IMG/VR virus record: IMGVR_UViG_3300035704_000008
Span: 1-64,000 of that record
Length of the DNA: 64,000 nt
From: a virus
Strand: one strand, 5' to 3'
Translations under genes and position numbers: made by a program
Shown here: positions 11,427 through 26,959 of the stretch, one piece after another
Layout of the letters: each line of letters begins with the position of its first letter
How positions within the stretch are numbered: position 1 is the stretch's first letter
Notes under the pieces: generated by a model
Told to the model about the DNA's origin: nothing
What the model saw: the letters and a program-made list of their open reading frames with translations, nothing else
Database searches by the model: none

Positions 11427-13258
11427 CAGGACACCGCCGCCCAGAACAGGTTGGTCGCCGCCGTGCTGGAGCTGAGCGTCAGCGACGACGGCAGGGATGT
11501 GCCGCCGGAGCCGTTGACGGCAGTACGGAGAGAGGCGGCGGGCAGCGCGCCGTTGATCGACTGCGCCGTGGAGTTGGAGGCTTTGAGGAACTGCGGGGCG
11601 GTGGTGCCGTTCCACAGGAATCCCGCGTAGATGAACCCGGCCGGGCCGCCGCCGGGGACGCTGACCGGGCCGCCGGTGATCGCCATCGTCTTCGGGACGG
11701 TGCCCGCGGTGCCCCACGCGCTGGCCTGGTCGGCTGTAACGCCCAGCCGCGTGCCCGAGGAGCTGTACAGGCCGGCGAAGCACTGACCGGAGGTCAGGGT
11801 GCCGCCGCCCGCGACGACGGTAGCCACGACGTTCGTGACGGACTGGGTGAGCGGCCACGGGATCTTGCACAGGATGACCCCGCCCGCAGTGGGCAGCACG
11901 GTGCCGCCGCTGCCCATCGCCGGGTCGTAGGTCCACCCGAGATAGCCGTACTGCTGGGCCGCCTCGTTCACCGCGCTGAGCGGCATCCACGTGCCGGGTG
12001 TCCCGGCGGTTACGCATGTCCACAGCGTGCCGTCCTGGGCGGTGATGACATCCCCGGCCGAGAATGTCCCGGACGCGGGTGCGCCGGATGCCGTGGCCCC
12101 GGCGAGCCGGAATCCGGTCGTAGCGCCCGTGATCCCCCCGAAGAACACTGAGGAGAAGAAAAACGCTGAGCTGTTGACGCTGAGGCGGCCGGGAAGGTTC
12201 GCCTGCGCCAGGGTGCCGTCCCCGATGACCGGTCCCAGGTAGGTGAACTGGGTGGACAGGGTCGTGACGTTCGAGGTCGCGAACAGGAAGCCCGCGCCGA
12301 AGCTCATGTTCCCGGAGCAGTTGACGATCGTGTTGGAGGTGCTGCCGTAATTAACCGTCTGGAAGGTGTGCGCCAGGCCGCCGTCCGACTCGACGTTGAT
12401 GTCGATCTCGCACTGCGCCAGGCCGGAGTCCGACGCCGGGTGGCCGCCGGGCGCCGAGCCGGTGATCTTCAGTACGGCCTGGGTGAACGAGCTGGATGAT
12501 GAGGCATAGTTCCCGAACAGCCGCAGCCGGCCGCCGACGAGATAGGCGCCGTTCTGGAAGACGATGCTGTCGCCCGTGAACGTGGTGTGCTGGACGTAGA
12601 TGGTGAAGTCGCCGCGGTCGTAACTGCCTGCCGAGGTCGTGGCGCCGCCGCAGTCGAACACGACGTCCTGCGTGCAGTTGTTCGTCCAGATCGAGGCGAC
12701 GGCCTGCTCGGACCAGTAGACCTGGTTGTCGAAGTGGACGCCGGCGTCACCGGCCTTGCTGAAGTTCTGCGCGGCCACGTCGATGCGCAGGCCCAGGATG
12801 TCGCCGGCGTGGACCGCGCATGACCCGGCACCGTCGCCGGCGCCGTCGATGACCGGGCGCCCTATGATGCCCCCGCCTTGCTTCGTCCGGGTGGTGTAGG
12901 TGCTGGCGTCGGTGAACCGGAAGCAGCCGCCGGTACCGGTCCAGTTGATGACCACGCCGGGCGCGCAGATCACCCACTGGTTAGTGGTGAACGGGCCGGC
13001 CGTGCTGGCGAGCTTGTATGTTCCGGCGGGCAGGTAGATGAACCCGCCGGCTGCGGGGATCGCGGCTTGCGCGGCGTTGAATGCGGCTGCCGAGTCGCTG
13101 GTCCCGGCCGGGTCGGCGCCGCCTGCAAATGCCGCGTTGAGGACGTTGTACCCGGCGCCCATCGCGGTCACCGCGTCGACCACGGCGTTCATGTCGGCGG
13201 GGGGGTTGCCGGATCCTACGCTGCGGGTGTCGGGCGGGAGGGTGAACTGCGCGGGCAT
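11426..13258 (-). CDS. Tailspike-like beta-helix protein (pectate-lyase fold)
   Basis: 610 residues. The N-terminus (TLPPDTRSVGSGNPPADMN) is a short particle-binding region. Residues about 50-330 have the pectate-lyase-3 pattern (DSAAAFNAAQAAIPAAGGFIYLPAGTYKL) with repeated short strands of a right-handed beta-helix. The C-terminus is a compact beta domain that may trimerise the spike. Such proteins bind or cleave surface polysaccharide. It overlaps the connector start by one base and lies between capsid and connector genes, not after the tape measure where tail fibres usually lie. Confidence 0.75.
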   Translation of the reverse strand: MPAQFTLPPDTRSVGSGNPPADMNAVVDAVTAMGAGYNVLNAAFAGGADPAGTSDSAAAFNAAQAAIPAAGGFIYLPAGTYKLASTAGPFTTNQWVICAPGVVINWTGTGGCFRFTDASTYTTRTKQGGGIIGRPVIDGAGDGAGSCAVHAGDILGLRIDVAAQNFSKAGDAGVHFDNQVYWSEQAVASIWTNNCTQDVVFDCGGATTSAGSYDRGDFTIYVQHTTFTGDSIVFQNGAYLVGGRLRLFGNYASSSSSFTQAVLKITGSAPGGHPASDSGLAQCEIDINVESDGGLAHTFQTVNYGSTSNTIVNCSGNMSFGAGFLFATSNVTTLSTQFTYLGPVIGDGTLAQANLPGRLSVNSSAFFFSSVFFGGITGATTGFRLAGATASGAPASGTFSAGDVITAQDGTLWTCVTAGTPGTWMPLSAVNEAAQQYGYLGWTYDPAMGSGGTVLPTAGGVILCKIPWPLTQSVTNVVATVVAGGGTLTSGQCFAGLYSSSGTRLGVTADQASAWGTAGTVPKTMAITGGPVSVPGGGPAGFIYAGFLWNGTTAPQFLKASNSTAQSINGALPAASLRTAVNGSGGTSLPSSLTLSSSTAATNLFWAAVS

Positions 13259-13526: not shown

Positions 13527-16500
13527 TCACGATCCCCAGATTTCGACCCAGAGCACCGCCGCCCCGGCGGTCAGCGCCACCGACTGGGTCACCGAAACGG
13601 CAGCCCCCGCCTGGCAGATCTCCAGGCCGCTAGACCGGAACGCCCCGGCAGAAGATGCCCCGGCGAACAGGGCGAAGCTCCCGGCCGTCCCGTCCGGGAG
13701 GTTGAAAATCAGGCTGATCGCCCCGCCGGTTTCGGTGCTTGTCACGTGCTGGTTGGCGATGACGAGCATCCGGTGTTGCAAGCCGTCGTTCGGGGGTGTC
13801 CACGTGATGACCGTCCCGGTGCCGTTAATCAGGGTGTACCCGGCCACGGGGGTGGCGGCCTGCAAGGTAAGCCCGGCCTGCCAGGCTGGCAGTCCGGCCG
13901 ATATGCCGAGAACCTGGCTGGCGCTGCCGACCGCGAGCCGCCCGGCAGTGCCCGCTGATGATTCGATCTCGATGTCGCCCTTGGCGCTCATCGGGGACAG
14001 GGCGTTGTAAGCGGCGGCGGCCGATAGCTGCCCGGTGCCGCCCTGCGCCACGGGGAGGGCGGACGCCAGGTGCGTGGCCGTGACCGTGGGAGACGGATAG
14101 GAGCCGCCGAGATCGCCGCCGGCAGACCCGTTCGGGGGGAGGGCGGCCGGGATCTGCCCGAATGCCGCCGCGTCGGTGCTGGCGGTCCCGTTCGCCAGGC
14201 CGGTGATCTTCTGGCTGTTCAGGCCGACCGCCGCGCCGGGCGGCTGCAGCGCGGCGATCTGGTCCAGGGTGCCGGTTTCGACGGTCGGCGCGGACGAGGT
14301 ACCGCCGATGACGATCGAACCGTCCCCGGCGGTGACTGAGGTGACCGCGCTGCCCGGCCCGGCGGCCTGGACGACGACGTTGAGGACGTTGCCGGCAACA
14401 CCGGCGTTCCCGTTCGCTCCGGTGCCTGACGCCAGGCCCGCCGCACCTCCGGTCACGGCGGTGGTCCCGCTGTTCGCCCAGGGGGCGAGCGTGTAAATGA
14501 GGATCAGGCCGCCCCCGCCGCCGCCAGCGCCTCCGCAGTTACCAGTGGTAGGCGTGCCGCCGCCGCCGCCAACGGCTGAGAGTGTCCCGGTGTTCGTCAT
14601 CGCCCAGGCGGCGATCCCGATCACGCCGCCCCCGCTCCCGCCGCCGCCGCCCTTGTTGGTCCCGTCGCCCCCGCCGCCCGCGCCGCCGCAGCCGCCGCCG
14701 AGCTGACGGACACCACCGAAGGCCATGCACCCGGTGGCGAGAATCTGCGGCACCCGCAGCATCCAGGTCCCGCTGTTCTGCGAGAATGCGCCTACCCCGC
14801 CGGTTCCCGACGACCCGGCGCCTCCCGCGCCGCTGCTGCCGACCCCGACTGTCGTGGCGGTGCCGTTGCCGCCGGCCGTGCCGTTCCCGGTCTGCCCGGC
14901 TCCCCCCGCGACCCCTCCGGCCAGGGTGTCGGTGGCAGTGGCCACGCCTGCGGTGCCGTTCGCGGCGCCGTTGTTGCCGTCCGCGCGGATGGTGCCGTTG
15001 TTGGTGACCGTCCCCTGGCAGAGGATCCGGTTCCCGTTGACCAGCAGCGTGACGCCGCTGTTGACCGTCAGGCCGGTGAGCACGCAGTCCCTGGTCATCG
15101 TGTACAGCGACCCGGTTTTAGTCGCCCATGACACCGTCGCGGTGCCGTCCAGGGCGGCCAGCCCGTCGGAGCCGTCGCCGAACGCCCCGTCATAGTTCCC
15201 CGACGGCGGGCTGATCGCCTGCCATTTCCCGGTGGCGGAGTTCCAGGTCGGCACCGTCCCGTTGCCGGGAACCGTCATGCTGGCATCGGCCAGGGTGGTG
15301 AGGGTCTGCGTCAGCGTCGTCCCGTTCCACCTGGCCGAGTTCCCTGACCCGGTCAGCGTCAGCGAGTCCGGCGACAGGACCGCTGCGGCCGTGGTGTCCC
15401 CGGCCATCCGCACGTCGTTACGGGCCGCGCCGTTGACGGCCCGCATCACGTACCCGGCCGGGCCGATGTTCTGGGAGGTCAGCTGGACGACGTTCCCGGT
15501 CGCCCCGTCGAGCACCAGGGAGGCGCAGTTGTTCGGGTTCGCGGACTGGTTGACGCCGTTGCCGAGGGCAGTATTGATCTGGTAGACGGTCCCGGTGATC
15601 GAGTTGCCCGTGCAGTTCCGCAGGTAGAACCCGGACTGGCCGTTCTGCTGCGCGTCGCAGCCGGCCAGCGATATCTCGGAGGCCGTGCTGCCCTCGAGGT
15701 AGAACCCGCAGCCCCACCCCTCGGCTGACGCGGCGGTGATCTGCGCCCAGTTCGTGCTGTCGGACGACGGCGCCACCGTGTCGCCGGTGAGGGCGTTCTT
15801 CGCGATGTACAGGCTGCCGCTGTAGATGACGCCCTGGGCGGCTGCCCAGTTCTGCCCGGTGGTCCATACCGGGGCGGTGCCGTTGTTGTACGACTTGCAG
15901 CCGGTCAGCCGGTTCGACGAGTGCACCATGAAGAACCCGGCGAGCGCGGCGCTCTCGGCGTGACAGTCGGACAGTTCGGTGTCAGCGGCGGTGACGTACG
16001 CGTTGCCGCCGGTCGCCTCGGTCCACACGCCGATGAGCCGGTTCCCCGACCGGCCGTTGTGAAAATAGCCGTCCCCCGTGGTCAGCTTGATCCACACGTT
16101 GACGAGGATGTGGGTCGGGTCGAAGTCCGGGTCGCTGGACGCCGCGGAGCTGACCGGGTTGGTGGTGCAGTTGATCCCGTAATTGAACGTCCCCGGGGTC
16201 TGCTGGTTCCTGTTCCCGTGGATTTCGAGGTTCCACAGCCCGCAGAAGAACGCGTTCGGGTCGGTGGTGCCGTTGGTGCTCTTGTGGAACTGGAGGGTAT
16301 CGCAGTCGGAGTTGGGCAGCAGCTTGATCGCGCTGGTGAGCCAGCCGGCGCCGCGCAGGTGGACCTGGGTCTGCAGGATGATCGTCTTCGACGTCGCGAT
16401 CGTCCCCGGCGGCAGGATGATCGTGCCGCCGCCGTTGGCTGATACCTCGGTGATCAGGTTGTTCAGCGCGGTCGCGTTGTCGGTTACCGCGTCGCCGGCG

Positions 16501-16832
16501 ACGCCGTAGTCCGAGGCGTGCCACTCGTCCAGCGGCGACATGGAGACGTAGTTCGCGGCGGACACGAACGGCGGGTTCCCGGTGCCGGTGGTGAACGACC
16601 GGGTGATGAGCAGCCGGTTGCCCTTGTAGACGATGACGTCCCACGGGCTGTAGGCCGTGGTGGCGGCGACCGGGCCGCGGTAGTTGAACGAGGGGGCCGT
16701 CAGGGTGCCGACGGTGATCTTTTTTGTGGTTCCCGACCCCGCCTGGGTGGTGTCATGCACGTCCACGACGGGAAGCACGTCATCGGCCTGCGCCGCTGCG
16801 AGCGCGGTGAGCTCGCTGATCTTGCTGCTCAT
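13527..16832 (-). CDS. Large tail fibre/spike: beta-helix plus glycine-rich domains
   Basis: 1101 residues. The N-terminus (MSSKISELTALAAAQADDVLPVVDV) is the fibre-anchoring motif common in phage appendage proteins. Residues about 100-460 form a pectate-lyase-type beta-helix (DNATALNNLITEVSANGGGT). Residues about 570-800 are extremely glycine-rich (GGCGGAGGGG, GGGGSGGG) like collagen-like or snow-flea type shafts. The C-terminal 300 residues contain SLGG-type SYPSPTV and QGGTG motifs of fibre tips. Likely host-receptor binding, possibly depolymerising. It lies upstream of the second spike in the same operon. Confidence 0.8.
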   Translation of the reverse strand: MSSKISELTALAAAQADDVLPVVDVHDTTQAGSGTTKKITVGTLTAPSFNYRGPVAATTAYSPWDVIVYKGNRLLITRSFTTGTGNPPFVSAANYVSMSPLDEWHASDYGVAGDAVTDNATALNNLITEVSANGGGTIILPPGTIATSKTIILQTQVHLRGAGWLTSAIKLLPNSDCDTLQFHKSTNGTTDPNAFFCGLWNLEIHGNRNQQTPGTFNYGINCTTNPVSSAASSDPDFDPTHILVNVWIKLTTGDGYFHNGRSGNRLIGVWTEATGGNAYVTAADTELSDCHAESAALAGFFMVHSSNRLTGCKSYNNGTAPVWTTGQNWAAAQGVIYSGSLYIAKNALTGDTVAPSSDSTNWAQITAASAEGWGCGFYLEGSTASEISLAGCDAQQNGQSGFYLRNCTGNSITGTVYQINTALGNGVNQSANPNNCASLVLDGATGNVVQLTSQNIGPAGYVMRAVNGAARNDVRMAGDTTAAAVLSPDSLTLTGSGNSARWNGTTLTQTLTTLADASMTVPGNGTVPTWNSATGKWQAISPPSGNYDGAFGDGSDGLAALDGTATVSWATKTGSLYTMTRDCVLTGLTVNSGVTLLVNGNRILCQGTVTNNGTIRADGNNGAANGTAGVATATDTLAGGVAGGAGQTGNGTAGGNGTATTVGVGSSGAGGAGSSGTGGVGAFSQNSGTWMLRVPQILATGCMAFGGVRQLGGGCGGAGGGGDGTNKGGGGGSGGGVIGIAAWAMTNTGTLSAVGGGGGTPTTGNCGGAGGGGGGLILIYTLAPWANSGTTAVTGGAAGLASGTGANGNAGVAGNVLNVVVQAAGPGSAVTSVTAGDGSIVIGGTSSAPTVETGTLDQIAALQPPGAAVGLNSQKITGLANGTASTDAAAFGQIPAALPPNGSAGGDLGGSYPSPTVTATHLASALPVAQGGTGQLSAAAAYNALSPMSAKGDIEIESSAGTAGRLAVGSASQVLGISAGLPAWQAGLTLQAATPVAGYTLINGTGTVITWTPPNDGLQHRMLVIANQHVTSTETGGAISLIFNLPDGTAGSFALFAGASSAGAFRSSGLEICQAGAAVSVTQSVALTAGAAVLWVEIWGS

Positions 16833-16835
16833 GCA

Positions 16836-17006
16836 TCAGCTCCCGGCTTCGTCGAGGATCGTGCTGCCCCCCTCGTCGAGGAGCGAGTTGCCGCCCTCGT
16901 CGAGGAGGCCCGGGATAGCTGCCCCTGCTATCCCCGCGGCGGACGAGGCCGTCAGGATGCCGTAAGGCGCGGACGAGGCGGTCAGCGTCGCTAGCGGGAC
17001 CGTCAT
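16836..17006 (-). CDS. Small repeat protein, three LLDEGG-type units
   Basis: 56 residues, ATG 17006, ending three bases before the fibre start. The C-terminal half consists of three tandem units (LLDEGGNS, LLDEGGST, ILDEAGS), and the N-terminal half has two ASSAPYG/ASSAAG units. It resembles linker peptides carried by fibre genes, perhaps a chaperone or a detached fibre linker. Confidence 0.6.
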   Translation of the reverse strand: MTVPLATLTASSAPYGILTASSAAGIAGAAIPGLLDEGGNSLLDEGGSTILDEAGS

Positions 17007-17054
17007 CCCTGGTCCGGTTCCAGGTGCATCCCGGCCTCCTCGTCATCGCCGTCG

Positions 17055-17186
17055 TCATGTCCGCTGCCACCGCTGGCAGCCGCACAGCCCGCATCGCAGG
17101 TCACCCGGCACGGTGTAATGCTCGTGGGCCTCGCGGGGATGCCCGCACCGGCAGGGACGCGACCGGAAACGCCCCAGCAGGCGCAT
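17055..17186 (-). CDS. Small zinc-ribbon protein
   Basis: 43 residues from ATG 17186, four bases after the previous stop. The pattern CRCGHPREAHEHY ... CGLCGC gives paired cysteines plus histidines suitable for one zinc. Similar tiny zinc proteins are common in actinophages; function unknown. Confidence 0.65.
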   Translation of the reverse strand: MRLLGRFRSRPCRCGHPREAHEHYTVPGDLRCGLCGCQRWQRT

Positions 17187-17190
17187 CCGG

Positions 17191-17370
17191 TCAGCCCTTC
17201 TCGTCGCTGTCCGCCGCCGGCTCGTGGACGGGGCCGTTGACCTGGCCGCCGCTGAAATGCGACGCGTCCGTCCCGAACTTCGCCTGCGCCAGGAGCTTCC
17301 CCAGCCGGCCGGCGAGGTCCCGGTGATCGCCTTCGGGGGCGTCGCCCTCGGCCTGCACATGCCACCTCAT
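17191..17370 (-). CDS. Hypothetical small protein
   Basis: 59 residues from ATG 17370 with AGAAGG upstream. Hydrophilic, with HFSGGQVNGPVHEP near the C-terminus. It closes the gap between the zinc-ribbon gene and the GT2 glycosyltransferase and is co-transcribed with them. No family recognised. Confidence 0.6.
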   Translation of the reverse strand: MRWHVQAEGDAPEGDHRDLAGRLGKLLAQAKFGTDASHFSGGQVNGPVHEPAADSDEKG

Positions 17371-17397
17371 GGCGCCTTCTTTCCGTATGCCTGCGGG

Positions 17398-18003
17398 TCA
17401 GCGGTAGGTGCTCGGCCAGATGTCGACCGTGTCCGCGGCGACTGAGGTGTACCTCACCCCGGCGTCCAGCCACCGCGACACCAGGTCCCAGTCGATCGTC
17501 GGCTCGGACTGCTCCCACGTCGCGACGTCCAGCAGACCGCGGCGGTGCATGATCGCCGGGACGCCGATCTGCCCGTAGCCCGGCGGGTCGGTGCCGATCC
17601 GGCAGCTGCCGTGCTGCGTGTGCATGATCATCCGCGAGTACGCGAACGCGGCATCCGGGTGAGCGTCCAGCGCGGCGGCGAGCACCGAGACGTGTTCTGG
17701 CCGGTAGGCGTCGTCGTCGTCGAGATAGGTGATGTACTCGCCCTTGGCCACGTCGGTGCCGTGCAGCCGCGCCCAGTGGCCCCACCGTGCCGCCGGGTCG
17801 TGCTCCGGGAGTTCGGCGAACCGCACGCCCGGCAGCGCCAGGGCGCCGAGTTTCTCCCGCAGTTCCTCATCCGGCCCGTCGGATACGACGACATGCTCGA
17901 CGGCCGGGTAGTCCTGCGCCTGCACGGACGGGATGCACCGGCCGAACAGCAGCGGGTGCCGCTGCCACGTCGGGGTGACCACCGTAACGGTAGGGACGCT
18001 CAC
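17398..18003 (-). CDS. GT2-family glycosyltransferase
   Basis: 201 residues from GTG 18003 (GTGA overlap with the epimerase). GT-A fold signature: VTVVTPTWQRH at the N-terminus, VSDGPDE, and the metal-binding acidic cluster YLDDDDAYR (residues 94-101). A later W..SEPTIDWDLV block fits the catalytic region. It would add a sugar from a nucleotide-sugar. Neighbouring epimerase and methyltransferase point to synthesis and modification of one glycan. Confidence 0.85.
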   Translation of the reverse strand: MSVPTVTVVTPTWQRHPLLFGRCIPSVQAQDYPAVEHVVVSDGPDEELREKLGALALPGVRFAELPEHDPAARWGHWARLHGTDVAKGEYITYLDDDDAYRPEHVSVLAAALDAHPDAAFAYSRMIMHTQHGSCRIGTDPPGYGQIGVPAIMHRRGLLDVATWEQSEPTIDWDLVSRWLDAGVRYTSVAADTVDIWPSTYR

Positions 18004-18797
18004 CGGTACGACTCCACTGTCTCGGCGAACCTGGCCGGGTCGAACGCAGGCCGCCAGTCCAGCCGGTCCCATCCCTCGCCTTCCGCCGCTATCTTCGCCG
18101 GGACCTCACCCAGCCGCATCGGCAGGTACACGGTCCCGGCCCGCGACCCGGTGATGTCCAGGACCATCGACGCCACCTGGTTCACCGTCATCGCCTGCCC
18201 GGTCCCGCCGTCGATCGTCACGTCATCCCCGAACTGCACGGCGTCGGCGAGCAGATGCGCCAGGTCACCGGCGTGGATCAGGTCGACCGTCTGCTCGCCG
18301 TCACCCCACACCGGTATCGGCCGGCCGGCCCACGCCGCGGCCGCGAACGTGGGGACGATCTTCTGCGGGTGGCCGGGGCCGTGTGCCTGGCCGGGCCCGT
18401 AGGCGTTGAATGCCCGCACCCGCGAGACCGGCAGGCCAGCATGATGGAAGGCCCGCTCGAGTTCCCGTCCGGCGATCTTGCTGGCCGTGTAGACCGACGG
18501 GAACACCGCCGGCATGGTGATCCCGGTGTAGCCCGCGCCGGCGTCTGCCGCGGCGGCGAGGACGTTCGCGGTGCCGATCACGTTGACCGTCAGCGCCTCG
18601 GTCACCCGGGCGAACAGCTCCGACGTGCCGAGGATCCCGGCCAGGTGGATGACGTGCCCGGCGTCGCCGAGGTCGAGCGGGTGCCGGATGTCATGGCCGG
18701 GCAGGTCGTAGGGCACTGCCTCGATGCCCGAGGCGGCCAGGTGGCTGGTGACGGCGCGGCCGATGAACCCGGCGGCGCCGGTGACGGCGATTTTCAT
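18000..18797 (-). CDS. NAD-dependent sugar epimerase/dehydratase
   Basis: 265 residues from ATG 18797 (ATGA overlap). An extended short-chain dehydrogenase with the NAD-binding TGAAGFIG (residues 6-13) and catalytic YTASK (Tyr103, Lys107). A short N-terminal extension from 18812 is possible but lacks support. It probably interconverts or prepares a nucleotide-sugar (UDP-glucose epimerase type) for the adjacent transferases. Confidence 0.85.
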   Translation of the reverse strand: MKIAVTGAAGFIGRAVTSHLAASGIEAVPYDLPGHDIRHPLDLGDAGHVIHLAGILGTSELFARVTEALTVNVIGTANVLAAAADAGAGYTGITMPAVFPSVYTASKIAGRELERAFHHAGLPVSRVRAFNAYGPGQAHGPGHPQKIVPTFAAAAWAGRPIPVWGDGEQTVDLIHAGDLAHLLADAVQFGDDVTIDGGTGQAMTVNQVASMVLDITGSRAGTVYLPMRLGEVPAKIAAEGEGWDRLDWRPAFDPARFAETVESYR

Positions 18798-19441
18798 CCG
18801 GCGAGCCGCCATTCGTCCACCTGTGCGCTCATCGTCTCCAGCCCGTCATCCGGCAGCACCGGCAGCATGTTGTGCGCGTCCACCGGCCCGGACGCCCCGA
18901 TCCACCGTTCGGCCTCCCACCGGTCACCGTCGGCCAGCGGCGCGAGCCGCCGCAGGAAGGACAGGTTGGCCCACCAGAAGTTCCCGCCGAACCAGCACCG
19001 CCACGGCGGCACCGGGCACCCCCAGTACCGCTCCGCGGTCAGCCAGTGCGGCCCGGCGCAGTCATGCTCGTCGAGCGCCGCGACGGCCTGCTCCCATTTC
19101 CCGGCGCAGTAGTACGTCATCCGCCGCCGCCACAGGATGTTCCGCCGGGACGGGTCCGCCGCGCCCTTGGTGTGCGCGTAGAACGCCTTGCCGTCGAGCG
19201 CCGCGAACGCGTGCAGCTTGCGGAGGGTAACTTCCTCATGCCCGGCGGCGGCCGTGGCCGCGATCTGCCAGCCGCCGAGCTCGGCGATGGCCGCCTGGCA
19301 GTTCGCGGGCCGGCCGACGATCCCGGCGGCCTTGTAGTCCAGTGCCGCGCCGAGCCCGGAGGCCTTCAGGGCGGCCAGGTGCTCGGCCAGCGGGTCCTGC
19401 CACGCGCCGTCCGCCCAGACGTGGTAGAAGTGCGCCAGCAT
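18794..19441 (-). CDS. Putative glycosyltransferase-like protein
   Basis: 215 residues, ATG overlapping the methyltransferase stop by one base. It contains FYAHTKGA, WRRRMTYY, GPHWLT and WFGGNFWWAN, a pattern in glycan-cluster proteins of phages and bacteria that behave like glycosyltransferases of uncertain class. Context with epimerase, methyltransferase and GT2 enzyme supports a role in glycan assembly; the exact reaction is unknown. Confidence 0.6.
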   Translation of the reverse strand: MLAHFYHVWADGAWQDPLAEHLAALKASGLGAALDYKAAGIVGRPANCQAAIAELGGWQIAATAAAGHEEVTLRKLHAFAALDGKAFYAHTKGAADPSRRNILWRRRMTYYCAGKWEQAVAALDEHDCAGPHWLTAERYWGCPVPPWRCWFGGNFWWANLSFLRRLAPLADGDRWEAERWIGASGPVDAHNMLPVLPDDGLETMSAQVDEWRLAG

Positions 19442-20004
19442 CAGCGGGGCGGGCCGGGCTCGACGACGGCCAGGCCCTCCGCCATCCCCGCGCCGTCCCA
19501 CCCCTCCGGCTTGCGGGCCAGCAGGAACACGCCCGGCGACGCCGGATCCGGGTCATGCTCCAGCTGCAGCACGTCCAGCCCGCACGCCTCCGCGATCCCG
19601 TCCATGTGGTCCACGGTGAACCGCTGGAAGTCACCGGGGTGCGGATGGTACGGGAACCCCGGCCCGCGGGCCGTCAGCAGCAGCACGCCGCCCGGGGCGA
19701 GCACCCTGGCGATCCCGGCCACCGCGCCGCGCCAGTCCTCCGCGTGCTCGAGCATTTCGGTTGAGATCACCACGTCCGCGGTGGCCTCGCCGAGCACCTC
19801 GGGGAGCTTCTCCGCCGGGCACACCAGGTCGACGCCCGGCCCCGGCTGCGCGTCAGTGGCGGCGTACGACGCCGGGCCCATCGCCTCGTACACGCTGCGG
19901 ACGGACCCGTTGTAGTCGTACGCGCCCGCCTCGACGACCCGGCGGTCCCTGATGTCCGCCGGGGTCAGCGCCCGCGACGCCCAGATGTACGCGGTGGGGT
20001 GCAA
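19441..20004 (-). CDS. SAM-dependent methyltransferase (class I)
   Basis: 187 residues from TTG 20004, just after the preceding stop. Motif I region VVEAGAYDYNGSVR, acidic TDAQPGPGVDLV, then ADVVISTEMLEHAEDW and LAPGGVLLLTARG are the usual methyltransferase-11 blocks. Given its neighbours it probably methylates a sugar, perhaps capping a glycan. The TTG start is chosen because no better start precedes motif I. Confidence 0.8.
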   Translation of the reverse strand: MHPTAYIWASRALTPADIRDRRVVEAGAYDYNGSVRSVYEAMGPASYAATDAQPGPGVDLVCPAEKLPEVLGEATADVVISTEMLEHAEDWRGAVAGIARVLAPGGVLLLTARGPGFPYHPHPGDFQRFTVDHMDGIAEACGLDVLQLEHDPDPASPGVFLLARKPEGWDGAGMAEGLAVVEPGPPR

Positions 20005-20005
20005 G

Positions 20006-20278
20006 TCAGGGGCCCTGGTGGGGGAACGACACGTCGCTGTCCCAGTCGCCCGGGGTCGGGCCGCCCAGGCTGAAGCCTCCCTCGCCGGCGCCCTGCGGCG
20101 AGTCGGCCCACTGCGCCGCGCCCGCGTTCCACGCCTCGCCGGCCGACTGAGCCGCCGCGGCGGTCCCGGCCAGGTCCGGGAGGGCCGCCTGGATCTCCGG
20201 CGACGTCCCGGCGTCCTGCATCGACATGCGGTCTCCCGCGGGGGTCTCGCCCGCGGTCGGGGGGATCGGTGCGGTCAT
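20006..20278 (-). CDS. Hypothetical Ala/Gly/Pro-rich protein
   Basis: 90 residues, ATG 20278 with AGGAGG six bases upstream. Acidic, disordered-looking ends around an Ala-rich middle. Second of three small head-module genes between the glycosyltransferases; no family recognised. Confidence 0.6.
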   Translation of the reverse strand: MTAPIPPTAGETPAGDRMSMQDAGTSPEIQAALPDLAGTAAAAQSAGEAWNAGAAQWADSPQGAGEGGFSLGGPTPGDWDSDVSFPHQGP

Positions 20279-20287
20279 CGTGGCCTC

Positions 20288-20578
20288 CTAGCCGTTGTCG
20301 CCGATGCCGTGACCCTGCGGGTCAGCGGGCGGAACCCCGGGCAGCGTCTCCGGGTCGCCGCCGAGGATCGACGTGTCCCGGTCCGGTGGCAGCGGCATCG
20401 GCATCAGGTCCCCGATAGGGTCACCCGCCGCCAGGGTGTCCTGGGAGATCTCCAGGACGTGCGCCATCCCGGCCGCCTTCGCCGCGTCGATCGTCGCCGC
20501 GATCGTGTTAGCGGACCCCGCGTCCCGGTCCACGCCCGGCGGCGCCGAGGGCAGGTCGTCCGGGCCCGCGTCAGCCAT
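20288..20578 (-). CDS. Hypothetical Pro-rich protein
   Basis: 96 residues. A helical segment (TIAATIDAAKAAGMAHVLEIS) lies between proline-rich, acidic, probably disordered tails. It overlaps the upstream gene by eight bases. Function unknown. Confidence 0.6.
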   Translation of the reverse strand: MADAGPDDLPSAPPGVDRDAGSANTIAATIDAAKAAGMAHVLEISQDTLAAGDPIGDLMPMPLPPDRDTSILGGDPETLPGVPPADPQGHGIGDNG

Positions 20579-20777
20579 CGGACTTACCCGTGGCCGCGGA
20601 CTTCGCCTTCGCCACGGCCGCCTTCACGCCGCCCGGCGGGCTGTCCTCGGAGATCTTGTCGAAGATCCCCGGGATCGCCTTCACCGCGGGATGGTCGTCG
20701 GCGAACTTCTCGTTCCGCCGCACGTAGACGGCGTTGCCGTTCACGTCATACCAGCCGTTTTCCCTAGACAGGTACAC
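20571..20777 (-). CDS. Small structural-type protein
   Basis: 68 residues from GTG 20777. The N-terminus (YLSRENGWYDVNGNAVYVRRNE, shown in part) resembles small proteins of actinophage head modules. The C-terminus is Lys/Ala-rich (AAVAKAKSAATGK). It overlaps the end of the glycosyltransferase gene by 14 bases. Possibly a minor capsid or decoration protein. Confidence 0.6.
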   Translation of the reverse strand: MYLSRENGWYDVNGNAVYVRRNEKFADDHPAVKAIPGIFDKISEDSPPGGVKAAVAKAKSAATGKSDG

Positions 20778-21774
20778 GGTCCATCACTCCTTCGTAAGCC
20801 TGCTCCCAGGCGGTGTACCGCTGCTGGATAGTCCACGTGGCCGCCAGCTTCCTAGCCGCCGCGCCCATCTCCGCCCGCATCGCCTCGTCGTTCACCAGCA
20901 TGCGCAGGTACCGGCCCCACTCGTGGTCATAGCGGACCAGGAACCCGGTCACGCCGTGCTCGACGTAATGCCGGTACGGCTCGCTGTACGAGGCGATCAC
21001 GGGGATGCCGAGCGCCCCGTACTCCATCGCCTTCAATTGCGACTTGCCCCTGGCGAACGCGCTGGCCGGGTCCAGCGGCGCGATGCCGATGTCGAAATCG
21101 ACGCCGCGATAGTAGTCCCACACGTCCGGCGTCCACTGCGTGTGCCGCACCTGCCCTGGCGGGACCCTCCACTCCGCGATCGGCGAGTAATCCGCACCGG
21201 CGAAGTGGAAGTCCACTTGCGGATTCCTGGCCAGGAACTTCGAGATCATCGGCGCCACATACCTGAAATCCCGCAGGTGAGACGTACCGCCCGCCCAGCC
21301 GACGGTCATCCGCTCACGGCGGGGCCGCTCGATTTTCAGCAGGTCTTCATGAACGCAGTTCGGCAGGACGGCCACGTTGCTGTTGTACGGCTTCACCACG
21401 TCGGCCAGCGGCTCGGTCGAGACCGTCACCAGGTCGGAGATGGACAGCAGGTACGCGGCGATGTCCCGGCACTCCGGCATCTTGTGCCACAGCGAGCCCT
21501 CATGGTCGGAGCTGAACACGTCATCGTCGATGTCATAGACCAGGCGCGTCTTGCCCTGCCACGACTCCCACAGGCCCATGCCGCGCGGCCCGGTCAGGAG
21601 CTGCCCGGCGAACACGTCGATGTCGCCGGCGTTCAGCTCAGCGTCGGGCAGCCACACCATGCCCCGCTCCGGCAGCATCACGTTGTGACCACGGCGGCGC
21701 AGCTCGGCCAGCGGCTGGTAACAGCGGTAGTAGCCGCACCCGTCCGCGCCCACCGGCAGTCCGAAAACCTTCAC
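20764..21774 (-). CDS. GT4-like glycosyltransferase (GT-B fold)
   Basis: 336 residues, ATGA overlap with the preceding gene. The N-terminal domain starts MKVFGLPVGADGCGYYR and contains LVYDIDDDVF. The C-terminal domain has VGWAGGTSHLRDF, FHFAGADY, DIGIAPLDPASAF and the conserved LKAMEYGALGIPVIAS donor-binding block, followed by GVTGFLV. It is a retaining glycosyltransferase of the GT4 type, part of the virion-glycan island downstream of the capsid gene. Confidence 0.85.
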   Translation of the reverse strand: MKVFGLPVGADGCGYYRCYQPLAELRRRGHNVMLPERGMVWLPDAELNAGDIDVFAGQLLTGPRGMGLWESWQGKTRLVYDIDDDVFSSDHEGSLWHKMPECRDIAAYLLSISDLVTVSTEPLADVVKPYNSNVAVLPNCVHEDLLKIERPRRERMTVGWAGGTSHLRDFRYVAPMISKFLARNPQVDFHFAGADYSPIAEWRVPPGQVRHTQWTPDVWDYYRGVDFDIGIAPLDPASAFARGKSQLKAMEYGALGIPVIASYSEPYRHYVEHGVTGFLVRYDHEWGRYLRMLVNDEAMRAEMGAAARKLAATWTIQQRYTAWEQAYEGVMDRVPV

Positions 21775-21980
21775 CCGGCCGCCAGTTCATCTGCCCGGGC
21801 CATCCGCCGCTCCAGATCCTCCTGCCGGGCCATGATCAGCTTGCACTCCTCGAGCTTCGCGTCGAGCACGTCGGCGGCAGCGTCGTCTTCCATAAGGCAT
21901 GCAAGCTCGTGGGCGGCGATCTCCCACCGGAGCCGGAGCTCCTCGCGGACAAGCTCAAACGGGGTGTCCATAGCTCCCAT
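21771..21980 (-). CDS. Small coiled-coil protein
   Basis: 69 residues, start overlapping the previous stop by one base (TAATG) and its own stop overlapping the next start (ATGA). Highly charged, helix-forming (REELRLRWEIAAHELA, ARQEDLERRMARADEL). It sits between two glycosyltransferases and may be an adaptor; no family recognised. Confidence 0.65.
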   Translation of the reverse strand: MGAMDTPFELVREELRLRWEIAAHELACLMEDDAAADVLDAKLEECKLIMARQEDLERRMARADELAAG

Positions 21981-22618
21981 TAAATGAGCATCGTCGTCTT
22001 CATGTGGCCCGCCTTGACTCCCGTCGCCACGTGCACCGGGATGCCCGCAGCGCCGAGGCGCAGGCAGAACGTCAGATCCTCCCCGATCAGCGACTCGCCC
22101 ACCACCGACTCGCGGAACCACGGCGCCGCCGGGCACCCGCTCGACTTCCCCACGTGCTCCAGCGCGTCACGGTGAAGCAGCAGGCACGCCGCGCCCGTCG
22201 CCGTGACCCGCACCAGGCCGTCATCCGGCCAGGACTCGTGCCGGGCGAACACCAGCTGACCATCGGTCTCCACGAGCTCGTACATCGTCGGCAGCGGCTC
22301 CCCGCCCGGGTTCTCCGTGAAGCACAGACCCCCGACCACGGGCCGGTCCTGCGGGTCCGCAGCAGCGATCAGCCGGTCGATCGTGTCCCACGGCAGCCGC
22401 ATATCCGTGTCGCACATGAACAGCCACGGCGCGTCGTGGTCCTCGAGGAACCCGGTCACCACCATGTTCCGGCCACGGCTGATATTCGGGCCGGAGCCGA
22501 CCGCGATCACGTCGTCGACCGGGGTGACGCCCCGGCGGGTGATGGCCAGCAGCGACGCGAGGAACTCCGCGCGGACCGTCCCGCCGTGCACGTAGCCGAT
22601 GACGGCGTGTTCAGGCAA
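21980..22618 (-). CDS. GT2-like glycosyltransferase
   Basis: 212 residues from a TTG at 22618 that overlaps the endonuclease stop. It contains VIGYVHGGTVRAEF, SRGRNMVVTGFLE, LFMCDTDMRLP (DxD-type metal site) and TGAACLLLHRDAL, GEDLTFCLRLGAAGIPV. This pattern is the phage GT-A glycosyltransferase family often near capsid genes. It is the first gene of the glycan island after the endonuclease. Confidence 0.8.
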   Translation of the reverse strand: MPEHAVIGYVHGGTVRAEFLASLLAITRRGVTPVDDVIAVGSGPNISRGRNMVVTGFLEDHDAPWLFMCDTDMRLPWDTIDRLIAAADPQDRPVVGGLCFTENPGGEPLPTMYELVETDGQLVFARHESWPDDGLVRVTATGAACLLLHRDALEHVGKSSGCPAAPWFRESVVGESLIGEDLTFCLRLGAAGIPVHVATGVKAGHMKTTMLI

Positions 22619-23279
22619 GCGCGGGATCCTTCCTGGCTGCGGTGATATACCGTGCCGCGGCTTCGATGATCTCCGGGTCATCCATGAAGAACCCGACGCC
22701 CATGTTGCAGCGGTGACAGAGCAGGCCACGCACCCGGCCGGTCACGTGGTCGTGGTCAATGTGCCAGCGCTCGCCGCGGCCACCCGGCTTATCCGTCCGG
22801 CAGATGGCGCAGCGGTTCTCCTGGCGCTCGACCAGGCCGTCCCAGTCGGCCTGCGTCAGGCCGTACAGGCGCAGCGTCCGGGCACGTTCCCGCACCCGGG
22901 CGTCAGGCCGCGGGTCTTTCCGGCAGTCCGGGCACACCGGCTTGCCGACCGGTGTGTCCACCGCCGCGCCGCAGGCGCAGCGGCGCGGCCCGAGATCGGC
23001 GTTCCGCTGGATCTTCCGCAACTCAGCCGCTGCCAGGGTGCATTTACGCGAGCAGTAGATCCGCGGCTGGCCCGACGTACGTACGCGAGTAAACGTCACG
23101 CCGCAGTGCGGGCACACCATCTGCTCGGGTGCGTGCACCCGCGGCACGTACTGCGCTTTCACGAAATCCCGGTTGCAGGCCTTGCATTCAGCCCGCAGGC
23201 CGCCAGCGCCGGATATGGACCTGTGGAATTCGGACAGCGGCTTTACCTTGCCGCACCTTGTGCATTTCTTTTCGACCAT
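22611..23279 (-). CDS. Endonuclease VII-like HNH protein
   Basis: 222 residues. It has three cysteine clusters (CTRCGK ... CKAC; CPHCGV ... YCSRKC; RCACGA ... CPDC). The C-terminal recombination-endonuclease-VII domain reads LYGLTQADWDGLVERQ, CAICRTDK, WHIDHDHVTGRVRGLLCHRCNMGVG with the His-Asp-His metal site. Such genes act as homing endonucleases or Holliday-junction resolvases. It lies 98 bases after the capsid exon 2 stop and so sits beside, not inside, the capsid group I intron. Confidence 0.85.
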   Translation of the reverse strand: MVEKKCTRCGKVKPLSEFHRSISGAGGLRAECKACNRDFVKAQYVPRVHAPEQMVCPHCGVTFTRVRTSGQPRIYCSRKCTLAAAELRKIQRNADLGPRRCACGAAVDTPVGKPVCPDCRKDPRPDARVRERARTLRLYGLTQADWDGLVERQENRCAICRTDKPGGRGERWHIDHDHVTGRVRGLLCHRCNMGVGFFMDDPEIIEAAARYITAARKDPALA

Positions 23280-23310
23280 ACGTCCATACTAGCGGACGTT
23301 CCCTACTCTT

Positions 23311-23357
23311 CGTCCCGTACTGACAGGTCATATCCCCCCACCCGCCAGTACGGGACG
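23311..23357. promoter_or_regulatory. 12-bp perfect inverted repeat between capsid and endonuclease
   Basis: CGTCCCGTACTG (23311-23322) and CAGTACGGGACG (23346-23357) are perfect complements around a 23-nt loop. On the plus strand the second arm is followed by ATTTTTC, resembling a terminator; on the minus strand it lies between the capsid stop and the endonuclease ribosome site. It may separate expression of the two genes or be an endonuclease target. Confidence 0.55.
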
Positions 23358-23377
23358 ATTTTTCAGCCCTGAAGCGA

Positions 23378-23446
23378 TCAGGTCAGCAAAACCCTGAACG
23401 CCGAGGGCGTCGAGACGTTCGCGCCGACCCTCCAGTACATGAACCA
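23378..23446 (-). CDS. Major capsid protein, exon 2
   Basis: 22 codons (WFMYWRVGANVS ... AFRVLLT) ending in TGA at 23378-23380. This is the hydrophobic last strand of HK97-type capsids, which the uninterrupted upstream frame lacks. Joined after GGT at 23724 it gives PTGQSG-WFMYWRVGANV, in frame and typical of the family. Confidence 0.85.
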   Translation of the reverse strand, partial: WFMYWRVGANVSTPSAFRVLLT

Positions 23447-23723
23447 CGATTTGTTACCCGCGCCTCTTGGTGCGCGGGGCCAGGTCATTTCTGCCTGGCT
23501 CTGCACCTTTGCCATCGGTGCAGACCGGACTGTAACTTCACCTGCGGTCCATCGCCCCTATTGCACTCGGGGCGCGGCCCATGTCACAGGTGCCACACGC
23601 TCAGTCTCTACGGAACCCTGTAGTGCGAGGTTTCCACGGTATTCCCCACGATCTCGGAGGGGTTCACCGTTACGGTGCGGTTTTCACTGACCGATCACTC
23701 GGTCAGGCGGCCAGTTCAAATTG
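23447..23723 (-). ncRNA. Group I self-splicing intron in the capsid gene
   Basis: 277 nt between the capsid exons. The exon before it ends in U (GGU) and the intron ends in G, as in group I introns. The core reads GUAGAGACUG (minus strand of 23602-23611) and GGUGAAGUUACAGUCC (ending near 23527), matching the conserved R and S elements. GACUG (23606-23602) pairs with CAGUC (23532-23528) to form P7. Perfect hairpins include 8 bp at 23687-23706 (P2-like) and 7 bp at 23501-23523 (P9-like). The U at the 5' splice site pairs weakly in P1 (U-A rather than U-G as I fold it), so the exact P1 is uncertain. No ORF inside. Confidence 0.85.
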
Positions 23724-25076
23724 ACCGGACTGTCCTGTCGGGAGGTTGGCGCTGGCGCCCGTGCCGGTCACCATCGGCTCGTAGATGATGCTGACCCCCA
23801 CGCGATCCACGATGTAGTAGTTCGAGAAGTCCCCGAACACCATCGGCTTGTGGGTCGTGGTGAGCACCGGGTCGATGGAGCTGGACTCGTAGATGGGCTT
23901 GCCCATCAGCTGCTCCGGCTGGTCCTTGCCCAGGTTCGTCCAGAAGCTCGCGCCGCCAGCGGTGTCGAGCGCCCGGGTCCGGTTGATCTGCGCGACGTTG
24001 GCCACCCACGCGCAGTTCGGGGAGTTCCTGAACCGCGGGGGCAGCGCCGCGTGCAGGGTGTACACGTCGGCCAGGACGTACGCGCCCGTGGTGGCCGTCG
24101 TCTGGGTGGTGGTCGCGCCGACCACGACGCCGGTCGGCTGCGCCGTGCCGGTGCCCGTGGCGAACGCGGCCTCTTCGAGCCGGTCCTTGGCGTCCGCCAG
24201 CAGGCGCGGGAGCTGGGTGCCGAAGTCGGTGTCGGACAGGACCTCGAACGACCCGAACACCCAGGCAGCGGCCTTGAGCGGCGTGATGACGATGTTCCCG
24301 ACGGTCGGGGACGCGTCGGCGGTGGCGACGCCTTCAGCGAGCCACGCCGCGGTGACGCCGGCCGACGTGACGCCGTTCCACGTGTTCGACGTGGTCGTCT
24401 TCACGTTGGAGATCCGCCGGTACGGATTGGCGGACGCGTTGTTCGTCAGTACTATCGTTGGGTCCAGTACAAACGGAAGGAGGTATCCACCTGATGCGAC
24501 ACCCAGGTTCAGGGCGGCGCGGGCCGCCATGTCGTCGGGGTTCGCGATGTACTTCGCGAACGCGTCGTAGTATTCCGGCGACCCGGTCTCCAGGATGTGC
24601 CGGGCGATGTTGTTCTTGGAGAAGTAGCCGCCGTCCTGGACCTTCCTGGTGGCTTCCTCGGCGAAGTCGTGGACGACCATGCCCCGCTTGGCGACCTGCT
24701 CGATCGCGTCGAGGGCCCGCTCGCGGAGCTCGCCGGAGGGCATCATGCCGTCCCGGGCGCGCTGCAGCTCGGCGAACGGGTCGCGGTTGTTGCGGATGAC
24801 CAGGTCGGGGCCCTTGCCGCCGTTCCCGGCGCGGCTGGTGCCGTAGGGCCGTTCGAGGTTCGCCTCGTCCTCGGTGGCGGTGCGGGTGATGGACTTGATC
24901 TTTTCCATCCGCTCGATGATCGGCTTGGTGAGGCCGTCGAGCTGTTCCCACCGGGCGAGGAGGGTGTCGCGGAGGTCACCTTCGTTGTCCTCGGTGACGC
25001 TCTCGTCGTTCTCCATCCGCTGGAGTTCGTGCTTGATCCTCGCCATCTCGTCGAGGTATTCCTGCAGCGCGGCCAT
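23724..25076 (-). CDS. Major capsid protein (HK97 fold), exon 1
   Basis: 451 codons. Residues 1-110 are a charged helical scaffold-like delta domain (MARIKHELQRMENDESVTED). Then comes the HK97-type shell domain with SGGYLLPFVLDPT, NPYRRISNVKTTTSN, AAWLAEGVA, AWVFGSFEVLSDTDF, NCAWVANV and GKPIYESSSID. Unspliced, translation stops after six intron codons (to 23703), losing the C-terminal strand. The delta domain is normally removed by the protease encoded just upstream. Confidence 0.93.
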
Positions 25077-25097
25077 TCCGCGCTCCTTTCGGTCTGG

Positions 25098-26420
25098 TTA
25101 CCAGACCAGCCCGGCCTTCTTCCGTGCCTCCTCGGAGGTCATGCGGTAGAGGGCGTGCTGGTGATACCGGGCCGAGTGCTCGTCACCGTCGGTGCGGGTG
25201 AGCGGCTCACCGGCGGCGGCTTCCTCATCTGGGGGAAGTGCCTCGTCGTGCTCGTCCGGCTCCGGGTCGCCGAAGGCGCCGGGAGTGGACATGCGGACGC
25301 CGAGGATCTCGGCGCCGCTGTACGCCTCGAAAGGCGTCGGGCCGAACTCTTTGAGGCCCAGCTCGTGGCGGCGGACCGTGGTCAGCTGGCCGCCGCGGGG
25401 GTAGTGCTTGTCACCGCGGCGCAGCTGCGGGTCGGAGCGGACGATCCGGCCCGTGAAGGACTGGGCGGTGATCGACCCGTTCCGGATGTTCTCCAGCACC
25501 TCATCAGCGAACGGGGTGTCTGAGTACCGGGCCAGGGTCAGCAGCCCGCGGGCCTCGGGACGGATGTCCACCGGGGTGGCGATCGGCATCGACCCGCGCT
25601 CAGACGGGGTGCCGTGGATCGTCATGCCGTGGTTGTACATGACCTTGACCTTGCCGAACCCGGCCCGGGACCGGCCGATGTCGGCCAGCACCTTGTTGAA
25701 CGCGGCCGGGTCGATCTCCTCGATGTAGTGGCCCTCGAAGTCCTGGATCTCGGCGGGGGCGTTGAACGCCGTGGCGTACGCCTCGACGAGCCGGCCCGTA
25801 CTGTCGCCCTGCGCGGCGCGGACGATGTGGATGTCCTCGAGCTCGTAGGTGCGGAAGTACACCGCCTCGGCGCGGGACGCGCTGCTGCTGCTGCTGTTGT
25901 CTGCCACGTCGTGCCCGTGCTTGCCCATGGCTGCCTTGATCTTCCCCTTGATCGCCGATAGCTGCGCCGGCGTGTACTGGCCCGCGTTCTTGGCCTGGTT
26001 GATGTAGGACCAGGCGGCCGTCACCTTGTCCGCGGACAGGGGGTACCGCTTGACGCCGGGCTTGCCGGACTTGGACGCCTGGTTGCCGTCGGCGTCGAGG
26101 TAGCCGGGGTCGCCGTAGTCCACGCTGGTGCCATAGGGAGCCTTCGTGTCGGTCGCCATGGCCGCCCTTCCTGCCTTGTGTTCCATTGCCGCGTGGGTCG
26201 CCGGCCAGATGCCGAGCGCCGCGTGGTGGGCCTGCGCGCAGTAACCCTTGGGGTCTTTGATGAACTTGCCGAGGTGCATCACGCACCGGTCGAAGTCGCC
26301 GCCCTCGCCCCACCGGATTTTCGCGGCGCCCTCGCCGTGGACCCAGTACTCGTGGAGCCGTTCGGTGCCGCCCGGGTTGGTGACCTGCCCGCCGGCGCGG
26401 ACCGCGCCCGTCTCATCCAC
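25098..26420 (-). CDS. Prohead protease with N-terminal DUF6582-like region
   Basis: 440 residues from GTG 26420. Residues 1-90 (YWVHGEGAAKIRWGEGGDFDRCV, in part) match a small-protein motif common near phage proteases. Residues about 95-170 (GYLDADGNQ, KRYPLSADKVTAAWSYINQ) look like DUF6582. From about 185 onwards lies the HK97 prohead protease (FRTYELEDIHIVR, YATAFNAPAEIQ, YNHGMTIHG, NGSITAQSFTGR with the serine). It matures capsid in the prohead. A three-part fusion, longer than typical proteases of about 200-250 residues. Confidence 0.85.
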   Translation of the reverse strand: MDETGAVRAGGQVTNPGGTERLHEYWVHGEGAAKIRWGEGGDFDRCVMHLGKFIKDPKGYCAQAHHAALGIWPATHAAMEHKAGRAAMATDTKAPYGTSVDYGDPGYLDADGNQASKSGKPGVKRYPLSADKVTAAWSYINQAKNAGQYTPAQLSAIKGKIKAAMGKHGHDVADNSSSSSASRAEAVYFRTYELEDIHIVRAAQGDSTGRLVEAYATAFNAPAEIQDFEGHYIEEIDPAAFNKVLADIGRSRAGFGKVKVMYNHGMTIHGTPSERGSMPIATPVDIRPEARGLLTLARYSDTPFADEVLENIRNGSITAQSFTGRIVRSDPQLRRGDKHYPRGGQLTTVRRHELGLKEFGPTPFEAYSGAEILGVRMSTPGAFGDPEPDEHDEALPPDEEAAAGEPLTRTDGDEHSARYHQHALYRMTSEEARKKAGLVW

Positions 26421-26425
26421 CGCTG

Positions 26426-26959
26426 CTACCAGTCCAGCCCGGCCGCGGCGCGGAGTTCCCGCGAGCGGAGCAGGTAGTCGGCGTGCCCGGCCGCCGTGTC
26501 CGCCGAGTCGCGGTGAACCGGCTTCGGCGCAGGGGCCGGCTTCTTCGGCGCCGTGTGCACGGCGGGATGCGGGGCGGTGTGCGCCGGGGCGTGCTTCGCC
26601 GCCGGGTGCCTGGTCCGCAGCGCCGCCGTCGTCAGCGGGCCCACCAGCCCGTCGACCTTCAGGCCGTGCGACTTCTGGAACGCCCGCACCGCCGCGAGGG
26701 TCTTCGGCCCGAAGATCCCGTCAACCTTCAGGGGCGGCTTGAACCCCAGCGCGTTGAGGCGGGACTGCAGGTCCGAGACCCGCTTGCCGTGCTCGCCGGT
26801 GCCTACCGGGTGCTGGTTGGTCGGGGTGGGGCGGGCGTCCTTGCCCTTGGCGGCGCTGCTGCTGCCGGAGGCGGCGGCGAACTGGCCGCCGGCCGCGCTC
26901 CCGGCGGGCGCGTGGAACTTGTTGAACCGCTCCGCGTCGGACGACCATGTGTCAGGCAT
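26426..26959 (-). CDS. Peptidoglycan-binding-domain protein in the head module
   Basis: 177 residues from ATG 26959 (GAGGG ribosome site); ATG 26992 is an alternative. The N-terminus (ERFNKFHAPAGSAAGGQFAA) is the head-morphogenesis motif often fused to protease or scaffold genes. Residues about 60-125 form a PG-binding-1 domain (VSDLQSRLNALGF, VDGIFGPKTLAAVRAFQKSHGL). Next comes an Ala/Pro/His linker and an end (LRSRELRAAAGLDW) resembling the protease C-terminus. Possibly packaged in the head or linked to cell-wall binding. Confidence 0.75.
   Translation of the reverse strand: MPDTWSSDAERFNKFHAPAGSAAGGQFAAASGSSSAAKGKDARPTPTNQHPVGTGEHGKRVSDLQSRLNALGFKPPLKVDGIFGPKTLAAVRAFQKSHGLKVDGLVGPLTTAALRTRHPAAKHAPAHTAPHPAVHTAPKKPAPAPKPVHRDSADTAAGHADYLLRSRELRAAAGLDW

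Follow-up and report, generated by a model that had tools for sequence, protein, structure and literature searches.

What does a phage do with a set of sugar-modifying enzymes encoded directly beside its capsid gene? The question arises from a stretch of 64,000 bases (the window) out of the 64,944 bases of the virus record IMGVR_UViG_3300035704_000008, with a GC content of 70%, where glycosyltransferase (GT), epimerase and methyltransferase genes form a minus-strand island (16836-22618) adjoining the major capsid gene. The enzyme set probably builds and caps a short sugar chain on the phage's own particle. With moderate confidence, and judging from sequence, we regard it as a late-expressed, phage-encoded virion glycosylation cassette that acts most likely on capsid and tail-tube proteins, because the enzymes are inherited together with the capsid gene, the tail-tube gene is accompanied by a transferase of its own, and the epimerase family recurs in the packaging or structural module of unrelated phages. 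The genes that carry this co-inheritance are GT4 and GT2b on the capsid side and a GT-B gene (8270-9316) beside the major tail protein, and the island itself runs from the capsid gene as one tight minus-strand row. An earlier note on this DNA had proposed virion surface glycosylation as a way to escape antibodies or attract hosts; the co-inheritance of transferases with capsid and tail-tube genes makes glycosylation the best-supported reading, while no evidence was found here for either motive.

The window probably comes from a temperate phage that infects soil actinomycetes, since it has an integrase gene (59580-60854) as well as RecT, DUF6879 and DUF5753 genes, and since Streptomyces and Micromonospora genomes encode homologues of the epimerase with 60% identity. 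Two DNA methylase genes lie close to the integrase, one of the N6/N4 type (57388-58536) and one of the C5-cytosine type (58805-59452).

The enzyme island

The minus-strand order is capsid exon 1, intron, exon 2, HNH gene, GT2b, a small open reading frame (ORF), GT4, three small genes, methyltransferase, GTx, short-chain dehydrogenase/reductase (SDR) and GT2a, and between HNH and GT2a no two neighboring genes overlap by more than 14 nt or stand more than 9 nt apart. GT2b (21980-22618) is a GT2-like enzyme that matches the PHROG 34859 glycosyltransferases (7e-21), with a Pfam match (0.004) that is below the cut-off. It is followed by a small ORF with no assigned function (21771-21971), which has a 4-nt overlap with the GT4 glycosyltransferase gene (20764-21774; PF13692, 6.4e-9; PHROG 7162 glycosyltransferase, 5.1e-49). 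The three small non-enzyme genes sm24, sm23 and sm22 (20571-20777, 20288-20578 and 20006-20278) come next, and the order GT4-sm24-sm23-sm22 is kept among relatives. The S-adenosylmethionine-dependent methyltransferase (19441-20004; PF08241, 1.3e-9; PHROG 32762, 2.9e-16), for which a sugar O-methyl cap is a possible product, is adjacent to GTx (18794-19441), a predicted GT-A or nucleotide-sugar transferase fold assigned by an AlphaFold2 model and its structural neighbors. The row continues with a short SDR of the nucleotide-sugar epimerase/dehydratase type (18000-18797; PF01370, 1.5e-25; PHROG 540, 4.5e-36) and GT2a, a glycosyltransferase with a DDD motif (17398-18003; PF00535, 9.3e-17), and ends with two small ORFs that are weakly supported, by codon score only (17191-17358 and 16836-17006). 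The island thus includes four to six small non-enzyme ORFs besides the enzymes. The two GT2-like enzymes, one GT4-like enzyme, epimerase and methyltransferase that the earlier note had listed in one minus-strand row are each borne out by gene calls and family scans. Chance ORFs as an explanation of the island genes were ruled out by codon pattern and family matches.

Ratios of nonsynonymous to synonymous substitution (dN/dS), which are simple pairwise whole-gene estimates for a high-GC genome, were 0.13 for GT2b (to L001; L-numbers are labels of the relative loci compared with the window), 0.22 for GT4, 0.26 for the methyltransferase, 0.33 for the SDR, 0.41 for GT2a and 0.48 for GTx against the best match of each. 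On these estimates the window enzymes are under purifying selection (0.13-0.48). The tail transferase had 0.32, and for comparison the capsid gene had 0.09 and the portal gene 0.23. Values against some lower-ranked matches were higher (GTx, 0.58; GT2b, 0.63; tail transferase, 0.80 over a 150-residue piece), and sm22 had 0.62-0.78.

Enzymes of this sort could also alter host envelope glycans, for superinfection exclusion or lysogenic conversion. The presence of an integrase, and hence a probably temperate phage, would fit such a role, as would the resemblance of GT2a to the envelope-polysaccharide transferases WcaA (5e-10) and TuaG (1.4e-9), although these matches are far below the cut-offs of those models. 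Serotype conversion cassettes of the gtr type have a membrane flippase and a bactoprenol transferase, and no such family was found by the profile scans of the island. Membrane proteins are not apparent among the island products, where the highest 19-residue mean Kyte-Doolittle value, 1.75, lies inside the methyltransferase fold core. An envelope role is unlikely, because the island encodes neither a flippase nor a polyprenyl-phosphate enzyme and no protein that spans the membrane, because its genes lie within the head operon, where they are expected to be silent in lysogeny, and because they are co-inherited with capsid and tail-tube genes.

Modification of phage DNA or of a small molecule is very unlikely. 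DNA-modifying phage glycosyltransferases do exist (PMC9614988), as in T4, but no base-hydroxymethylating or hypermodification enzyme was seen among the genes scanned (some small ORFs were outside the scan), the phage has two ordinary DNA methylases instead, and the cassette is located in a virion operon.

Enzymes beside the capsid gene in relatives

GT4 is the island enzyme with the most constant link to the capsid gene. Among 27 capsid relatives, 13 continue for 5 kb or more past the capsid gene; about 11 of these 13 are independent, L016/L017 and L022/L023 being near-duplicates. A GT4 homologue lies downstream of capsid in 11 of the 13, and the other two, L012 and L027, lack GT4 but have GT2b. 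GT4 is also present on the shorter contigs L001, L010, L013 and L021. L006 keeps all the window enzymes, with a more distant SDR, and L002 has no SDR or GT2a up to its contig end. Nothing was recognized in L003 or L009, nor in the remaining capsid relatives, which have less than 0.7 kb after capsid.

More distant capsid relatives have a different arrangement. In the Streptomyces prophage of L093 (capsid 52% identical) and in L096 (41% identical) the capsid gene is followed by the adaptor and none of these enzymes was recognized, and in Gordonia phage Madeline (33.7% identical) no glycosyltransferase is annotated from capsid to tape measure. L095 and L097-L100 have too little sequence past capsid to judge. 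Since none of the enzymes was recognized or annotated there in L093, L096 and Madeline, the capsid-side set looks like a gain in this lineage.

The tail-linked transferase

A transferase linked to the tail genes, also claimed in the earlier note, is confirmed as a GT-B glycosyltransferase gene (8270-9316, minus strand; PF13524, 5e-14). It lies between two major tail protein paralogues on the same strand, paralogue 1 at 9614-10048 (PHROG 1407, 3.3e-7) and paralogue 2 at 7840-8235 (PHROG 9522, 1.1e-9). Relatives of this gene were found in 11 loci, three of which end inside the gene, and in all eight testable loci the next recognized gene encodes a major tail protein. L028 has an SDR and GT2a directly ahead of a tail protein-transferase-tail protein arrangement, and L038 (55% GC) has a distant capsid gene followed by a tail-tube-like gene, SDR, GT2a and GT4. 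In L020 a single major tail protein was seen, with the transferase adjoining.

A second cassette at the terminase

The short SDR family has 31 IMG/VR loci. In 26 of the 30 other short-SDR loci (L029-L058) the enzymes have the order GT2-SDR-TOD1/MUCI70 transferase-methyltransferase-GT2; TerL lies downstream in 22 of the 30, a second, long SDR is found in 17, and in 21 the set is preceded by a gene at the place of the small terminase subunit (a weak assignment, PHROG 3678, of unknown function). The five-enzyme cassette is also present in prophages with terminase and portal genes in Streptomyces caniscabiei (L062) and Streptomyces sp. 549 (L063), and the isolated phages Zuko and Magritte carry part of it. 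SDR relatives in Actinomadura (L064 and L065) and in 11 further loci (L066-L076) had no cassette recognized by the queries used, and Micromonospora L061 has SDR, GT2, TOD1 and GT4 matches with no phage head genes recognized in 20.8 kb. The short-SDR cassettes in phages unrelated to the window appear to be an independent recurrence in the packaging or structural module.

The SDR and GTx families

Of the traits of an extended SDR, the protein has the GxxGxxG and YxxxK motifs, both given in the earlier note. In an alignment of the window with 16 of 32 short-SDR loci, all 17 sequences share the Rossmann residues G7, G10 and G13 as well as Y103 and K107, and each has Thr or Ser upstream at position 94, after a shortened loop. 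The profile matches of the SDR in the PDB are a mixture of Pal, MoeE5, UDP-glucose 4-epimerases and dTDP-glucose 4,6-dehydratases.

GTx was the putative fourth transferase of the earlier note. An AlphaFold2 model built on 43 sequences (the window and 42 of 80 loci), with a mean predicted local distance difference test score of 93, has a GT-A/nucleotidyltransferase fold. The gene has no Pfam, PHROG or NCBIfam match and a PDB sequence search gave nothing at E<=10. With six members as queries, IMG/VR yielded 115 stretches that encode the protein, of which 80 were kept. GTx belongs to a large phage family that is unnamed in the profile libraries used. VIA-align placed the model near mannosylglycerate synthase (2y4l; Z 12.1, 182 aligned residues, root-mean-square deviation (rmsd) 4.2) and the GlmU nucleotidyltransferase (Z 12.3, 183 aligned, rmsd 4.2), and other structural neighbors are hyaluronan synthase (Z 11.6, 170 aligned, rmsd 3.7) and dolichyl phosphate mannose synthase (Z 11.5, 170 aligned, rmsd 3.6). 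Because the best neighbors mix glycosyltransferases and nucleotidyltransferases, the fold alone cannot decide between these two activities. A first GTx model had a template modeling score of 0.71 to an unnamed 638-residue entry of a viral structure library, the identity of which was not confirmed; its length is that of chlorovirus A064R, which it calls to mind.

Metal-independent GT-A enzymes exist, and in the 43 aligned GTx sequences the DXD metal motif is not found at the end of the sheet strand at 85-90, where there is an invariant HxKG instead. Gene neighborhoods were tallied for the 42 loci chosen from the 80, with 71 of the 73 listed immediate neighbors scanned. Among the 71, 14 match Glyco_trans_1_4 and 4 match TOD1_MUCI70 (the families overlap, so that the numbers do not add), and others match Glycos_transf_2, methyltransferases, cytidylyltransferases, one epimerase and one phage capsid protein. 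These neighbors favor a glycosyltransferase working in sugar loci, and a transferase activity is predicted from the fold together with these neighbors. L145, which shares its contig with L079, has a GTx-family gene immediately behind a capsid-like gene, and the other enzymes were unrecognized in the short contig; this is possibly a minimal capsid-transferase pair.

Comparison with known systems

Virion glycosylation in mycobacteriophages Che8, Corndog and Myrna was reportedly described by Freeman et al. in 2023. Virion proteins of these phages are given as glycosylated in PMC12363180, and PMC13313380 also refers to this work. Systems of the Che8 kind have phage-encoded transferases, as does the window, and their acceptors are capsid and tail-tube proteins, which are also the predicted acceptors for the window. 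The three adjacent transferases of Che8 lie at the right genome end, whereas the window set is in the head operon, and the annotated stretch around the Che8 transferases has no epimerase or methyltransferase, both of which the window has. The GT2 of the second cassette type matches Che8 gp108 at 3e-5, the sole match to gp108-110.

Streptomyces phage Zuko has a homologue of the window GT4 (gp5, 5.6e-53), and its SDR and transferase lie a gene upstream of the terminase. Unlike the window it has these two enzymes only (gp4-gp5), and gp4 is a long-type SDR (7.3e-125 against the long one in the second cassette). Upstream of the terminase, gp5-gp8 of Microbacterium phage Magritte include two transferases, an HNH gene and an SDR that matches the one of the window at 2.6e-34, but no methyltransferase is annotated there and the two transferases are unmatched to those of the window. 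Microbacterium cluster EC phages are described with two transferases and a UDP-glucose dehydrogenase (PMC7302621). For Rhodococcus cluster CB, virion glycosylation was suggested by the authors from a transferase and a methyltransferase, and these phages also have two paralogous major tail subunits; in the sections of that source covered here, the gene numbers are far apart (60 and 49 in Peregrin) and the genes are not described as one cassette (PMC13313380). The claim that actinophages have only single transferases therefore does not stand against Che8, with three, Zuko, Magritte and cluster EC. The kind of system is already known from Che8 and others; within the literature searched, the fuller set, the tie to capsid and tail-tube genes, the spread and the GTx family are new.

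A likeness in working is also found outside the phages. A064R of Chlorovirus PBCV-1, a protein of 638 residues, is described as combining a methyltransferase domain with two rhamnosyltransferase domains, the second of which is independent of metal (PMC9614988). As proposed for the window, it provides virus-encoded transferases and a methyl cap for a capsid glycan (PMC9614988), but this is a eukaryotic-virus N-glycan made by domains of one protein, where the window has separate genes.

Acceptor and proposed mechanism

Several points weigh against a cassette directed at the capsid and tail tube. The capsid protein does not end in a long Ser/Thr tail, and no transferase was recognized in the 1.6 kb that follow capsid in L003 or in the 2.5 kb that follow it in L009. 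No island or tail gene of the window matches Che8 gp108-110 (phmmer, E<1), such homology being a trait of the Che8 enzymes and not of virion glycosylation as a kind. The row also contains a spike gene and small genes for non-enzymes, so that the acceptor cannot be told from closeness to the capsid gene.

The virion could thus be glycosylated mainly on the spike (13527-16832) or on products of the small head genes in the island, and not on the capsid shell. The spike gene is directly downstream of the island, sm24-sm23-sm22 are interleaved between GT4 and the methyltransferase with their order kept, and in L028 the SDR and GT2a lie beside tail-tube genes, away from capsid. We nonetheless consider such an acceptor improbable, as GT4 stays with capsid even where the rest differs (L011, L014 and L022).

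Under the favored reading, with capsid and tail-tube proteins as acceptors, the cassette would be expressed late and would draw nucleotide sugars from the host, one of which the SDR may epimerize or dehydrate. A first transferase, GT4 or GT2b, the two that stay with capsid, would act in the cytoplasm and attach a sugar to a virion protein; the glycan could then be lengthened by GTx and GT2a and capped by the methyltransferase. The tail-linked transferase may have the matching job on the tail tube. For a phage that lives in soil, antibodies are irrelevant; the glycan could equally well serve adsorption, stability or protection from host factors. A tentative and rather unlikely extension is that head and tail of this lineage bear methyl-capped oligosaccharides from separate dedicated enzyme sets, one on the capsid side and one on the tail side, and that GTx founds a large metal-independent transferase family in the role that A064R-D2 has for chlorovirus capsid glycans; virus-encoded methyl-capped capsid glycans would then have evolved twice.

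Capsid gene and neighboring features

The major capsid protein is of the HK97 fold family (TIGR01554, 1.1e-46; PHROG 10, 1.1e-39). Judged from the reading frames, its minus-strand gene is split by a 277-nt intron (23447-23723) between exon 1 (23724-25076) and exon 2 (23378-23446; 22 codons and stop), because the reading ends early and the C-terminus present in relatives resumes downstream, matching the intron-less L001, L002 and L004. Joined, the two exons give 473 residues; in close relatives that lack the intron the ORF has 475-478 codons, stop included. At the intron borders U precedes and G is last, as in group I introns, and Rfam gave no intron match at E<=5 in 22900-23900 and no match reaching the gathering level over the window. 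About 210 bases of the intron are about 74% identical to the tail-gene region of cluster J mycobacteriophages, including Baka and Optimus, for which a 265-bp spliced insertion in this region has been published (PMC3706429). The capsid genes of L003, L007, L013, L016, L017, L026 and L027 are interrupted or end early at several differing places, as if intron insertion into the capsid gene of these relatives were frequent, and several of the early-ending readings terminate in LAA. An HNH/endonuclease VII-like gene lies downstream of exon 2 (22611-23279, minus strand; PHROG 2633, 3.4e-38).

The island had been placed between capsid and connector genes. It does adjoin capsid, but two pectate-lyase-fold proteins separate it from the head-tail adaptor (10542-11393, minus strand; PHROG 442, 1.4e-16): the tail-spike-like protein (minus strand; PF12708, 2.6e-9; PHROG 2234, 6.5e-9) and a second protein with a weak match (11426-13258). 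Neither a promoter nor a minus-strand terminator came out of scans of 16500-26000, but the counts are at the level of shuffled sequence and hence uninformative. The head operon also encodes a protein with peptidoglycan-binding domains (26426-26959) just upstream of the capsid protease gene. The large terminase is divided between two genes (30443-30982 and 30946-31887), one for the ATPase and one for the nuclease portion, which match the N- and C-terminal halves of the single-gene terminases in L011, L014 and L026. Many close relatives share this split, and in some of them the two genes overlap by 4 nt.

Significance

These results turn scattered notes on actinophage glycosyltransferases into a testable pattern, in which cassettes are tied physically to capsid, tail-tube or terminase genes. 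They also point to a large transferase family with no name in any of the profile libraries used. The cassettes occur both in uncultured phages and in named, growable Streptomyces prophages. If the virion reading is true, these would be cultivable systems for asking what purpose the sugars on phage particles have in soil, where antibodies play no part.

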